From assembly GCA_016938195.1 (NCBI GenBank), contig JAFGVC010000037.1, positions 1 to 63,401 on the forward strand: 63,401 bases of DNA. Direction: 5' to 3'. The position numbers were made by a program, and so were the translations under genes. Source of the stretch: Tissierellales bacterium. Lineage in GTDB: Bacteria > Bacillota > Clostridia > Tissierellales > Dethiosulfatibacteraceae. The notes below the pieces were generated by a model. That model searched no databases. It saw nothing but the letters and a program-made list of their open reading frames with translations, and was not told the origin of the DNA. Below are positions 32,549 to 50,453 of the stretch, one piece after another (the stretch's first letter is position 1; each line of letters opens with the position of its first letter).

Positions 32549-32560
32549 TTTAAAATTCAT

Positions 32561-32632
32561 CTTCTGTCCTTTTACCTGAGAGCTTCGCCTTTCGGCTTTC
32601 CCCTTCGGTGCTCATATGAGTCTCTCCAGAAG
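32561..32632 (-). ncRNA. Glycine riboswitch aptamer
   Basis: Read on the minus strand, the element has the gcvT-type core: CTTCTGGAGAG, then GCACCGAAGGGG, then GCTCTCAGGTAAAAGGACAG. The ends CTTCTG and CAGAAG pair as P1, with GAGAG/CTCTC inside. Upstream (32636-32674) a CCGG-bounded hairpin may be a degenerate partner aptamer, as in singlet glycine riboswitches. It controls the ACT/UPF0210 transcript. Confidence 0.9.
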
Positions 32633-32708
32633 TTTGTCCAGCACCGGTTACCTTTGTTTCCGGAGCCTTCAACCAAGTATATTTAATATTTAATATTTAA
32701 CAGTTATC

Positions 32709-34168: not shown

Positions 34169-34181
34169 ATTGTCTCCCATT

Positions 34182-34365
34182 AAAAACCCGCTCTGCCGTG
34201 GCTCATATAATTCAATACCCGCCTCACAGCAGGTGGGTGTTCTGTCTTAAGTTTTGATCTCCTGTCTAGCAGGCTCATCATCCCTTTAAGAACTTGAACT
34301 CCCGTATCAATCATGTCGGTTGAATTAAATGAAACCTCGAACATTGCAGGCCAATTTTCTTTCTT
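34182..34365 (-). ncRNA. Structured RNA of about 184 nt: 6S-like RNA or attenuator leader of the PHP gene
   Basis: A near-consensus promoter starts an RNA ending in GGG plus five U, 14 bases before the PHP start. Fold A: 34331-34320 pairs with 34215-34204 (11 of 12 pairs), extended outward by CTGC/GCAG, with a 3'-side hairpin (34238-34217) and a distal stem capped by CCTG/CAGG. A rod with a central bubble and a side hairpin, at this length, is what 6S RNA looks like. Fold B: 34237-34225 pairs with 34200-34187 as a terminator and excludes the side hairpin of fold A. A 54-codon frame also crosses it but lacks a ribosome site. The identity is an inference. Confidence 0.55.
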
Positions 34366-44833: not shown

Positions 44834-45937
44834 TCACTCCTCATAAATATATAATCGCTTTTCTCCCAATAATTCTTCATCAATCAAATCTGCCATGCTT
44901 GTAGGCGCCGTCACTATATCACTATACCCGTCACTTACAAATTTAAGCTCAGGCTTTTCTTCAAAATATTTAAACCATTCCTCTGATTCAGAATGATCCG
45001 CCGTTTGACTTGCTCTTATTCGTGGCAATGAATGTGCTGAAAATCTTGAATCAAAGCATGAATAAGCCGGATTCCACCCTACCTCTACCGCTACAATATG
45101 ATTATACGAAATTCCTTCAAACTCGCCCTGTAACATATAAGGTTTTAAATCTTCAGTCGGATGAATCCCATAAGGAATTGAAAAAGACTCTATCTTATAA
45201 TCCGGCAAGGTTTCCTTAAAGAAATTATTCATTTTTCCTAATTCTTCTTGTATTTCCTCAGAAGATTGCAGTTGATTCAAATAAATATGGTGATAAGTAT
45301 GATTTCCAATGTCGTATCCACTGTCTATCAGATATCTCAGCTTGTAATCATAAAGCTTCTGCTGCCTAAAGGGATTGGTCCCAAATACAAAAAAAGTTGC
45401 AGTTATATTAAAGTCTTCATATTTTTGGTTATAGGCCTGCATAATTCCAACGGCACAATCCGGATCTATCTTTAGATTTTCTTTGTCATCGAATATATTG
45501 AAATTATTTCGATTTCCATCATCGAAGGTTAATACAACCGGTGTATATCCTGCAGGAACATTTATTTCTCCCCGAACATAATCTTTTAAAGCAATAGGTC
45601 TATAATTATTTTGGTATAGGTATTCCAGATCCTCTCTGAATGCTTGTGGTGTAATTTCCCAGGCGCTATTTTCCTGGCCTATGCTATGATACATTAAAAT
45701 CATAATTTTGCCCGCTTCATTAGGTTTTAATGAAACATCAACCTCTATTTCATCTATAGATGTCGTTTCATCTACATAAATTTCTGTTGCGTCTGTTGTT
45801 TCTGTTGTTTTTGTTTCGTCCGACATTTCCGTCATCTCAATGTCCGATCCGGTCAAAGTTAAATCTTTTTGCGTGTCATTTCCACATCCTGTCAATAATA
45901 GTATGATTAAAAGCATACTATAAAAAGCACTTCTCAA
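44834..45937 (-). CDS. Polysaccharide deacetylase lipoprotein
   Basis: The 367-residue protein has a lipoprotein signal (LLTGC, Cys18), a Thr/Glu-rich linker to about residue 65 and a NodB-type carbohydrate esterase domain: LMYHSIG, the catalytic TFDDGNRNN, and HTYHH for zinc. It probably removes acetyl groups from peptidoglycan or another envelope polymer outside the cell. The insertion between TFDDG and the zinc motif (about 55 residues) is larger than in the minimal domain. It begins an operon divergent from DUF4364-rnhA. Confidence 0.88.
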   Translation of the reverse strand: MRSAFYSMLLIILLLTGCGNDTQKDLTLTGSDIEMTEMSDETKTTETTDATEIYVDETTSIDEIEVDVSLKPNEAGKIMILMYHSIGQENSAWEITPQAFREDLEYLYQNNYRPIALKDYVRGEINVPAGYTPVVLTFDDGNRNNFNIFDDKENLKIDPDCAVGIMQAYNQKYEDFNITATFFVFGTNPFRQQKLYDYKLRYLIDSGYDIGNHTYHHIYLNQLQSSEEIQEELGKMNNFFKETLPDYKIESFSIPYGIHPTEDLKPYMLQGEFEGISYNHIVAVEVGWNPAYSCFDSRFSAHSLPRIRASQTADHSESEEWFKYFEEKPELKFVSDGYSDIVTAPTSMADLIDEELLGEKRLYIYEE

Positions 45938-47087: not shown

Positions 47088-48251
47088 TTACAACTTAAAT
47101 GTTTCCTTCTCTAACGTTTGTAATGCTTCTTCAATAAGCGTCATATCATTCAAAACCGTTTCGGACTCTAGAATTTTATCTTTTTTAGGTTGAGTGACAG
47201 GATGAAGTGGTGAGAACACAGAGCAACAATCTTCATAAGGCAATATGGATGTTTCATAGGTCCCAATACGCCTTGCGATTTCAATTATTTCCGTTTTATC
47301 CATACCAATTACGGGACGAAGGATCGGAATAGATACTGCAGCATCTATCACTCCAAGAGCTTTTGAAGTTTGACTGGCTACTTGGCCCAAGCTTTCACCG
47401 GTAATTAAAAAATCGTACTGTTTTTCAAGAGCAATTTCTTCTGCGATTTTCATCATGAATCTTCTAGCTATGATAGTAGATTCATCTTCAGGGCATTTCT
47501 TTTTTATTTCTTGATAGATATTTAATAGGTTAATTGAATACAAAGTTGATTCAATACAATAAGTGGTCAACAAATCTACAAGCTGTCTAACCTTATCCTT
47601 TGCCCACTCACTCGTAAAAGGATAGGCATGAAAGGTCAGAAATGAAACTCTGACACCTCTTCTTGCCATCATATATGCGGCGACCGGGCTATCAATTCCG
47701 CCTGATAATAACACTAAGCCCTTACCATTGGTACCCATTGGTAATCCACCGACACCTTTTATTTTTTGTGACGCAACATAGCAAAAGCTTCTAATATCAA
47801 CATAAACTATCATGTCAGGTTGATGCACATCGACTCGGATATCAGGAAAGTGATTTAAAACCTCTCCCCCTAGCCATCTGTTCATTTCCATCGAATCCAC
47901 CGGGTATTTTTTATTTGCCCTACTCGTCATAATCTTAAAAGTATTAATTTGCTTCTCTTTTCTATTATAAGATATTGTTTCAATCACAGCATTTCTTATC
48001 TCTTCACGTTCCAAAGTTGTCTTGATACAAGGTGATATCATAACAATGCCAAATATATTACTTATCTCTTTAATGATACCTTCAGTATCCTCCATTGTAT
48101 CAATAAATATTTTCCCTCGGTCTCTATAAAGTTTTAACTCTTTTTCTTTAAGCACCCTCTTTATTTGCAAATCTAATTTTTGCTCGAATTGCCCTCTGTT
48201 TTTTCCTTTCAAAACTAGCTCTCCAAGACTGATACTAATAGCATTATACAT
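47088..48251 (-). CDS. thiI: tRNA 4-thiouridine synthase
   Basis: ThiI makes 4-thiouridine at tRNA position 8 and can supply sulfur for thiamin. The 387-residue protein has an N-terminal ferredoxin-like/THUMP part (ISISLGELVLKGKNRG) and an ATP-pyrophosphatase domain with SGGIDSPVAAYM, and the conserved catalytic-type Cys in LPYEDCCSVF. It lacks the C-terminal rhodanese domain of the enteric enzyme, so a dedicated desulfurase should deliver the sulfur. That desulfurase gene is directly upstream and overlaps by 8 bases. Confidence 0.96.
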   Translation of the reverse strand: MYNAISISLGELVLKGKNRGQFEQKLDLQIKRVLKEKELKLYRDRGKIFIDTMEDTEGIIKEISNIFGIVMISPCIKTTLEREEIRNAVIETISYNRKEKQINTFKIMTSRANKKYPVDSMEMNRWLGGEVLNHFPDIRVDVHQPDMIVYVDIRSFCYVASQKIKGVGGLPMGTNGKGLVLLSGGIDSPVAAYMMARRGVRVSFLTFHAYPFTSEWAKDKVRQLVDLLTTYCIESTLYSINLLNIYQEIKKKCPEDESTIIARRFMMKIAEEIALEKQYDFLITGESLGQVASQTSKALGVIDAAVSIPILRPVIGMDKTEIIEIARRIGTYETSILPYEDCCSVFSPLHPVTQPKKDKILESETVLNDMTLIEEALQTLEKETFKL

Positions 48252-49404
48252 TTACATCTCCTCCTTTAATCACTTTTCTGATTGCATTTGCATAAATAAT
48301 TATTTTTTCAGCAATGATTAAAGCCTCATCGCGGTTATTATCCATTCCAATGCTAATTCTGACGCTTCCCTCAACATCCTTTTGGTCTCTTCCCAGTCGT
48401 TCAATCACACTTCTCTTTTGATGCTTTTTCGTTGAACAAGCCGACCCCGTTGAAATATAGATTTCTTCTGATTCTAAATAGCGCACCAATATTTCTCCTT
48501 TTATATCTCTGATTGAAATATTGATTATGTATGGTGACGCGTTGGAACAAGAATTGATTATAATATTTGGCAAATTAGCCTTTAGATGATTGATTAATAG
48601 CTCTTTGCATTCTATCATTCTATCATATTCATCTTCCATAATGTCATTTCTAATCTTTACAGCCTGAGCAAAAGCCATGGCAGCGGGTAAATCTTCCGTT
48701 CCGGGTCTCAGACCCCTTTCTTGTAAACCACCATAAAATAAGGGCTTAATTGAGCTTCCCTTCCTTATAAAAAGGCCTCCAATGCCCTTCGGTCCGTGGA
48801 TCTTATGACCAGAAAAACTAATCGAATCAGCTTTAGTCTTTTGCAAATCTATTCTAATCTTGCCGAAAGATTGTACACAATCTAAATGGATATGTGTCTT
48901 TATATTTTTCTTTTTAATTGTATTACATATCATTTCAATGTTTTGTATTGTTCCGATCTCACTGTTAACATGTGTGAATACAGCCAACACTGTTCGATTA
49001 TTAATTCTCTTTTCTAAATCTTCTGAGTCTATGAAGCCATATTGGTCTGTTTTAATATGAATAATTTGATATCCTTTTTTAGTTTGAATCTTGATGGGTT
49101 CCATCACCGAAGGATGCTCTATATTTGTTTGAAGAATCTCTAATCCTTCTGCTTCCCTTGCACATACACCGGAAATGATTAAATTATTGCTTTCTGTCCC
49201 CCCGGAAGTAAAGTAAATTTCTTCAGAATGGCATTTTAGAAATCTGGCCATTTCAAATCTTGTGTTTTCAAGATTGACCTGACAGATATGTCCAAAGGCA
49301 TGAGAGGAAGAAGGATTGGCATAGAAATTTCCGCATGCTTCTATATATGCTTGTAAGGATTTGGCATGTATCTTTGTAGTCGCAGCATTATCTGCATAAA
49401 TCAT
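48244..49404 (-). CDS. Cysteine desulfurase (NifS/NifZ-like), partner of ThiI
   Basis: The 386-residue PLP enzyme takes sulfur from Cys to form a persulfide. It has YADNAATTKIH at the start, FTSGGTESNN, the PLP Lys in SFSGHKIHGPKG, LRPGTED and the mobile active-site Cys in STGSACSTKK. Paired with thiI as in Bacillus (nifZ-thiI), it is probably a dedicated sulfur donor for tRNA thiolation, not the general Fe-S assembly enzyme. AGGAGG precedes the start. Confidence 0.93.
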   Translation of the reverse strand: MIYADNAATTKIHAKSLQAYIEACGNFYANPSSSHAFGHICQVNLENTRFEMARFLKCHSEEIYFTSGGTESNNLIISGVCAREAEGLEILQTNIEHPSVMEPIKIQTKKGYQIIHIKTDQYGFIDSEDLEKRINNRTVLAVFTHVNSEIGTIQNIEMICNTIKKKNIKTHIHLDCVQSFGKIRIDLQKTKADSISFSGHKIHGPKGIGGLFIRKGSSIKPLFYGGLQERGLRPGTEDLPAAMAFAQAVKIRNDIMEDEYDRMIECKELLINHLKANLPNIIINSCSNASPYIINISIRDIKGEILVRYLESEEIYISTGSACSTKKHQKRSVIERLGRDQKDVEGSVRISIGMDNNRDEALIIAEKIIIYANAIRKVIKGGDVNV

Positions 49405-49476: not shown

Positions 49477-49505
49477 TTGCGATAAAAACATTCATATGCT
49501 ATAAT
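49477..49505 (+). promoter_or_regulatory. Promoter of the C-rich small RNA
   Basis: Plus strand -35 TTGCGA (49477-49482), 17-base spacer, -10 TATAAT (49500-49505). Nothing protein-coding on the plus strand follows it, which points to an RNA gene. Confidence 0.75.
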
Positions 49506-49511
49506 TAAGTT

Positions 49512-49606
49512 GGTTATCCCCCCGATAGCCAATATATATTCCCAATACCCCTTTTAAGCATTTATGCTTAGGACAAAACGACCTGGAAAGGTCGTTTTGT
49601 CTTTTT
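49512..49606 (+). ncRNA. Candidate C-rich small RNA with its own promoter and terminator
   Basis: About 95 nt. From the 5' end: a 7-bp hairpin (49512-49518 and 49524-49530) with a loop of five C; a single-stranded part with UUCCCAAUACCCCUUUU; a 5-bp hairpin (49556-49560 and 49565-49569); and a perfect 12-bp terminator (49572-49583 and 49590-49601) followed by five T. The T run is only on the plus strand, so the terminator serves this RNA and not the minus-strand genes. Exposed C-rich segments are typical of Gram-positive small RNAs that pair with ribosome binding sites. No family assigned. Confidence 0.7.
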
Positions 49607-49613
49607 GTTTATA

Positions 49614-50453
49614 TTATTTTTTAAACTGATTAATATAGGATTTTTTCTCTTTTTCATATTCCCTCATAAGTGATTCAACAATTCTGTTGACTGAAGAATG
49701 ATAAACAATAGATCCAATCAAATTAATGGGCATTACGTCTATTGAAGTCCCCGTTGCAAAAACAGCGTCAAAAATTGGTAAATCTTCTACGCGAATCGTT
49801 TTTTTGTGTATCGCTATTCTTTTTTGATGGCATATCTCTTCAATTTTCTTTCTGGTTGTCCCAAGCAATACTTCTTGATCCGGAGCGGTAACCACGGAAT
49901 TTCCTTTTATGAAAAATATATTTGTTCTGCTTCCTTCAAGAACTTCTCCATATTCAGATACGTAAATACACTCATCCGCCTTTTCCTCTTCAAGAATATT
50001 ACTTATAATTTCTTTTAAATCATTGTTTAAAACTTTAGCATTTGGGTTTTCTCTTTCTTCATATAGCAATACAGCTTTATAACCCGCTATGATTTTATTT
50101 CTATCGGGATATTGAGATTTCGTATAGTAACCTAAGAGAAAAATCTTGTCTTCAATTTTAGAATAAGTGATTTTAATATTATTGTTTTTTTGATTTTGAT
50201 GAAAAATTAGCGTATTAATTAAATCAATAATCTCTTCTCTTGTATAACTATCCGCTTCTCCTATTAAATTAATGCTATTATTGAATCGTGTAATATGATC
50301 TTCTAAAAACAAAGGTTTCCCATCTATCAATCTGATAACCTCATAAACAGTTTTACCGGATTTTTCAATCGTCTCAAAAATTTCTTCTATCGAAACAAAT
50401 AGATCATTCATTACACCAGACGCCAAAATATTATCTCTTATCATCTTTATCAT
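49614..50453 (-). CDS. Class IV aminotransferase (branched-chain / D-amino-acid / ADC lyase type)
   Basis: A 279-residue PLP enzyme of fold IV. It has the TVYEVIRLIDGKPLFLEDHITRF start, the PLP Lys in NAKVLNNDLKE, EYGEVLEGSRTNIFFIKG and TGTSIDVMPI. These motifs do not separate branched-chain transaminase, D-alanine transaminase and aminodeoxychorismate lyase. The start overlaps the helicase gene by 23 bases. It has no amino-acid synthesis neighbours. Confidence 0.82.
   Translation of the reverse strand: MIKMIRDNILASGVMNDLFVSIEEIFETIEKSGKTVYEVIRLIDGKPLFLEDHITRFNNSINLIGEADSYTREEIIDLINTLIFHQNQKNNNIKITYSKIEDKIFLLGYYTKSQYPDRNKIIAGYKAVLLYEERENPNAKVLNNDLKEIISNILEEEKADECIYVSEYGEVLEGSRTNIFFIKGNSVVTAPDQEVLLGTTRKKIEEICHQKRIAIHKKTIRVEDLPIFDAVFATGTSIDVMPINLIGSIVYHSSVNRIVESLMREYEKEKKSYINQFKK

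Follow-up and report, generated by a model that had tools for sequence, protein, structure and literature searches.

RsaE/RoxS, found in Staphylococcus and Bacillus, is a small RNA (sRNA) of about 100 nt whose C-rich motifs pair with G-rich ribosome sites, and CsfG is a small RNA conserved in endospore formers. RoxS is the subject of dedicated studies (PMC4409812, PMC8216469). SpoY, an sRNA of C. difficile, binds G-rich ribosome sites, represses spo0A at the ribosome-binding site of that gene and is most abundant in exponential phase; it is derived from a 5' UTR, shares its start site with CDIF630_00827, and its nt 30-41 are protected by spo0A (PMC10267692). The same work lists eight more C. 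difficile sRNAs with a spo0A chimera profile similar to that of SpoY (PMC10267692).

The locus considered here lies on the plus strand at positions 49477-49606 of the window, which is the whole 63,401-nt stretch of DNA that was analysed. Direct reading of the sequence gives the complete layout of an sRNA gene, running from promoter through hairpin, open strand and a further hairpin to terminator. The features of the gene and its neighbours are as follows:

49477-49505, plus strand: sigma-A promoter TTGCGA-17-TATAAT with an extended -10 (TGC), read from the sequence, the same element standing in 107/110 related loci
49477-49482, plus strand: -35 element TTGCGA, with a 17-nt spacer to the -10
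49500-49505, plus strand: -10 element TATAAT, with TGC directly before it (extended -10)
49512-49606, plus strand: predicted sRNA transcript of ~95 nt, from its fold (z = -7.1) and homologues
49512-49530, plus strand: 5' hairpin GGUUAUC-CCCCC-GAUAGCC, from the fold and from covariation on both sides at 6/7 pairs
49519-49523, plus strand: C-rich loop CCCCC of the 5' hairpin, from the fold
49531-49554, plus strand: open C-rich region AAUAUAUAUUCCCAAUACCCCUUU, containing UUCCCAAUACCCC, from fold and conservation; the best-conserved segment of the sRNA family
49555-49570, plus strand: small hairpin UAAGCAUUUAUGCUUA, from the fold; lineage-specific, with other sequence in its place in other families
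49571-49606, plus strand: intrinsic terminator of 14 pairs (49571-49602) plus a T run to 49606, from the fold and related loci; conserved in position, not in sequence
47088-48251, minus strand: thiI-like gene, member of the same divergent pair as nifS
48244-49404, minus strand: nifS-type cysteine desulfurase, the divergent neighbour, with synteny kept in Tissierellales and Peptostreptococcales
49614-50453, minus strand: class IV aminotransferase, the convergent neighbour of the sRNA

The predicted fold has a minimum free energy of -35.3 kcal/mol (z = -7.1 versus 200 dinucleotide shuffles), and the gene is present in one copy in the window's genome. The original prediction had described a TTGCGA/TATAAT promoter with 17-base spacing, a 5' hairpin with a CCCCC loop, an open C-rich region and a small hairpin, all of which are borne out by the sequence and the fold. 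It had also stated that no plus-strand gene follows; indeed, both neighbours are on the minus strand, and no plus-strand gene was found downstream of the locus in the window. The proposed terminator with its T run is present as well, although the stem has 14-15 pairs and not the 12 given. In contrast, the suggested kinship with RsaE/RoxS or CsfG is unsupported: at gathering thresholds, none of the sRNA families of Rfam 15, RsaE and CsfG included, matched this locus or any of 23 related loci, and a relaxed-threshold scan gave only sub-threshold noise, nothing of it relevant. Elsewhere on the minus strand of the window, Rfam marks a 6S RNA (34181-34355), a glycine riboswitch (32554-32639) and a single CRISPR-DR25 match (45160-45184) that is barely above threshold.

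Lack of conservation in related genomes had been named as a finding that would speak against an sRNA here; conservation was looked for and seen. Homologues occur in 7/8 genomes of the window's family, and an initial search, run over 60 related genomes, gave copies with 87-92% identity within that family and the conserved core in many others. A pattern scan matched at least 117 stretches in named genomes, the matches listed including Sedimentibacter, Dethiosulfatibacter, Tissierella, Anaerosalibacter, Alkaliphilus and Natronincola, as well as Romboutsia, Tepidibacter, Emergencia, Anaerovorax and many MAGs. At the least, the same RNA is present in more than 100 named Clostridia genomes of the Tissierellales, Peptostreptococcales and 'Family XIII'. 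The covariance model matched in the majority of the order's families and also in several others of the class; a large family of small genomes (f3) was nearly devoid of the sRNA, and a second family carried it in 95/119 genomes. Among the further families is the Clostridiaceae-like f58, taken as Clostridiaceae from its gene content. Its form, GGUUAUUGACCAUAUAACCUCUCAUAAAUUCUCAAUACCCUUUUAUAC, scores only 25-30 bits, yet the layout is identical in ten genomes, and it is probably a diverged homologue. No members were found outside the class in a sample of the phylum. Weak covariance-model matches elsewhere were rejected: most of them fell by coincidence in coding sequence, above all on the YNPNTPFE codons of an ABC-type ATPase. 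Two or three copies per genome were seen in L113, L129, L073, G587 and G602, often in tandem about 200 nt apart (three such copies in L113, two in L129).

Across 110 loci the sRNA has a median length of 86 nt. A TTG/TATAAT promoter stands 6-9 nt before the hairpin in 107/110 of them, compared to 1.1% in shuffles, with a spacer of exactly 17 nt in 103 of 110, and a terminator is likewise present in 107/110. In AT-rich DNA the promoter pattern alone is not above chance (4 found versus 10.3 expected in 2 kb), so it is the comparative evidence rather than the single-site match that makes the promoter significant. Among 54 distinct sequences, 6/7 pairs of the stem were altered on both sides, with 19 such cells against 4.5 in shuffles, in an alignment that was fitted to the model and hence leans towards structure, the slid controls nonetheless reaching only 8 at most. 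An earlier count in a pattern-selected set had seen no covariation, as the 5' arm was held constant by the pattern used for the search; in the free-arm set it is clear. The open strand AUCUCUAnUCCCAAUACCCCUUUU is nearly invariant across the family, whereas the C-rich loop is swapped for UGACC in Clostridiaceae and for GNRA-like loops in a few others. In L319, L320 and L324, for instance, a GNRA-like or CAAU loop replaces it and the single strand is unchanged. This makes the strand the core of the family, with the loop as a second element that is common. The five-C loop of the original prediction is indeed present in the window, but the invariant element is rather the CAAUACCCC single strand.

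The surroundings of the gene differ between lineages. In Tissierellales/Peptostreptococcales-type loci with enough sequence, nifS or thiI is divergent upstream in 34/35; in Family XIII-type loci this holds for 0/35, and the gene after the sRNA is exonuclease-like. The neighbours in f58 are Veg-like and spore-associated genes (named from sequence by eye). Three contexts with one RNA imply that the sRNA most likely acts in trans, independently of the neighbouring genes, and its own promoter and terminator, found irrespective of the neighbours, are what is expected of a trans-acting sRNA. Conservation thus supports the view that the locus is very likely a genuine stand-alone sRNA gene with its own housekeeping promoter and terminator, from which we infer transcription. 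The original reading, a complete C-rich sRNA encoded in trans, has strong support from the promoter, the covarying 5' hairpin, the near-invariant C-rich strand, the terminator and the independence of context.

The mode of action that we consider probable is that of a conserved trans-acting sRNA whose C-rich stretches pair with G-rich ribosome sites, with spo0A as a target and feedback by Spo0A in sporulating relatives and with other targets in the window's family. The short 5' hairpin would present the C-rich loop, the near-invariant strand would stay open, and both could plausibly pair with the G-rich Shine-Dalgarno regions of several mRNAs, thereby blocking translation. In sporulating relatives, spo0A would be a likely target, and Spo0A in turn would repress the sRNA through a TGTCG element between -35 and -10, so that the two would form a double-negative switch. 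In the window's family, which has neither spo0A nor the box, the sRNA would serve other targets. The window's genome has Hfq, whereas a search of six Family XIII-type genomes that keep the sRNA found it in none of them.

GGGGG occurs in the ribosome site of spo0A in 15/20 genomes, compared to 7% of 723 other genes, and the computed pairing of the hairpin loop to spo0A is in the top 10% of ribosome sites in 14/20. For one Sedimentibacter, for Clostridiaceae and for 2/3 Family XIII genomes, only weak pairing of the loop is computed. Since spo0A ranks high but does not stand alone, as many other G-rich sites match well too, it plausibly belongs to a regulon and is not the only target. In the spo0A leaders L299-L318, the ribosome sites are long G runs (AGGGGGGU), unusual among adjacent genes.

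The consensus of the Spo0A box is TTTGTCGAA. The Spo0A-box-like TGTCG lies between -35 and -10 in 30/44 genomes with spo0A and in 2/15 without detected spo0A, a difference with Fisher p = 0.0003 that is uncorrected for kinship among phylogenetically non-independent genomes. The two box-bearing genomes without detected spo0A may be incomplete drafts. In Sedimentibacter and many members of Family XIII, spo0A is present without the TGTCG box, and neither spo0A nor the box was found in 6/6 tested genomes of the window's family. Together with the G-rich spo0A ribosome sites, this distribution suggests a double-negative loop between the sRNA and Spo0A in spore formers that would have been lost together with spo0A in the window's family. 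As this family lost both spo0A and the box yet keeps the RNA, the RNA must serve other targets there.

One candidate lies in the window's own genome, where a long complement, GAAAAGGGGTATTGGGAATATTgttttGGGGGGaaGGGGGGATAA, is found 50-95 nt upstream of cas9 (G000:C21:5280-5325; L179:980-1026). It is colinear with both C-rich elements of the sRNA, and the computed duplex reaches -59 kcal/mol versus -29 +/- 4 kcal/mol in shuffles. The site may be targeted by the sRNA, or it may be what is left of an antisense copy of the sRNA gene that has decayed; the sequence upstream of it resembles that upstream of the sRNA gene with p of about 0.02-0.04. This complement was not found in the other 247 genomes searched, and across all 248 genomes there was little in the way of long complements beyond the sRNA loci and background. 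A 22-nt complement with one mismatch was observed at G625:C13:734-755 (L271), upstream of a short gene (MPKRNGTGPVGMGP...). A more far-reaching scenario, which we put forward only tentatively, is an ancient class-wide sRNA in a mutual-repression switch with Spo0A: in growing cells the sRNA would keep spo0A from being translated, Spo0A would silence the sRNA through a box within its promoter, and lineages without spo0A would have rewired the sRNA to other targets, such as cas9. Judged on sequence, transcription is very likely; the proposed mode of action is likely and the spo0A loop possible.

The rarity of long complements elsewhere is also what would be expected if the invariant C-rich strand titrated or guided an RNA-binding protein, with mRNA pairing being secondary. 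Pairing with changing targets would be expected to leave the open strand less constant across a class than it is, and the sRNA persists in genomes without Hfq or Spo0A. However, known seed regions of Firmicutes are C-rich as well, the strand would also be frozen by pairing with many similar ribosome sites, and a long complement does lie upstream of cas9 in the same genome; a protein-binding role is rather unlikely.

Pairing with G-rich ribosome sites is shared with SpoY (nc020), and the sRNA might be its orthologue in C. difficile with spo0A repression as the main job. The comparison runs through G351, apparently a C. difficile genome to judge by its pilin, which matches the solved structure 4ixj, C. 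difficile PilJ. In G351 the sRNA stands beside nifS-thiI, and by our own estimate, scaling from the locus tag of the gene next to SpoY leads to about the same genome region; the peak of SpoY in exponential phase would fit as well. However, SpoY is derived from a 5' UTR with a downstream gene, and in G351 no plus-strand ORF of at least 20 aa was found between the sRNA and the convergent transporter gene. Moreover, nt 30-41 of the G351 RNA, numbered from the predicted start site, read AAUAUAUCUAUU, which is not C-rich and has no C run, whereas spo0A protects that site in SpoY. Orthology with SpoY is accordingly quite improbable and identity with it unlikely; the sRNA may belong to the eight further C. 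difficile sRNAs with a SpoY-like spo0A profile. Another candidate, RCd6, was rejected; it lies at CD0469-CD0470.

Dual-function sRNAs exist, and the locus might be a short peptide gene instead of a noncoding RNA. Against this, the core has no conserved start codon with a ribosome site, differs in length between loci by non-multiples of three and is soon followed by the terminator, which makes a peptide gene very improbable. The idea that promoter, hairpin and terminator came together between two genes by chance, which the unremarkable promoter match taken alone might suggest, is refuted by the class-wide conservation, the covariation and the recurrence of promoter and terminator, each in 107/110 loci, and has a negligible probability.

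If the favoured reading as a trans-acting sRNA is correct, this RNA is among the more widely conserved ones of that type in Clostridia, yet it is without an Rfam family. Its presence in an apparent C. difficile genome makes the role checkable at once, as target-mapping data exist for that organism, and its survival in spo0A-less lineages makes other targets a direct question. Should the spo0A link be true, the sRNA would be a conserved post-transcriptional gate on the sporulation decision.

Compared with the known systems, CsfG is likewise a conserved small RNA, of endospore formers; the window sRNA differs by having no Rfam match and a housekeeping-type promoter and by occurring in spo0A-less lineages. 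SpoY is clostridial too, but its nt 30-41 site and 5'-UTR origin misfit with the window sRNA, and conservation as a family is not described in the SpoY paper (PMC10267692). In the article texts searched, no description of the sRNA as a family was found. With RsaE/RoxS it shares the size of ~100 nt and exposed, conserved C-rich seeds, here the loop and the open strand. This likeness is an analogy only, as the window sRNA matches none of Rfam's models and differs in host class, layout and context. Overall, the sRNA is of a known kind, the trans-acting C-rich sRNA of Firmicutes, and appears to represent a new family of it, not in Rfam.
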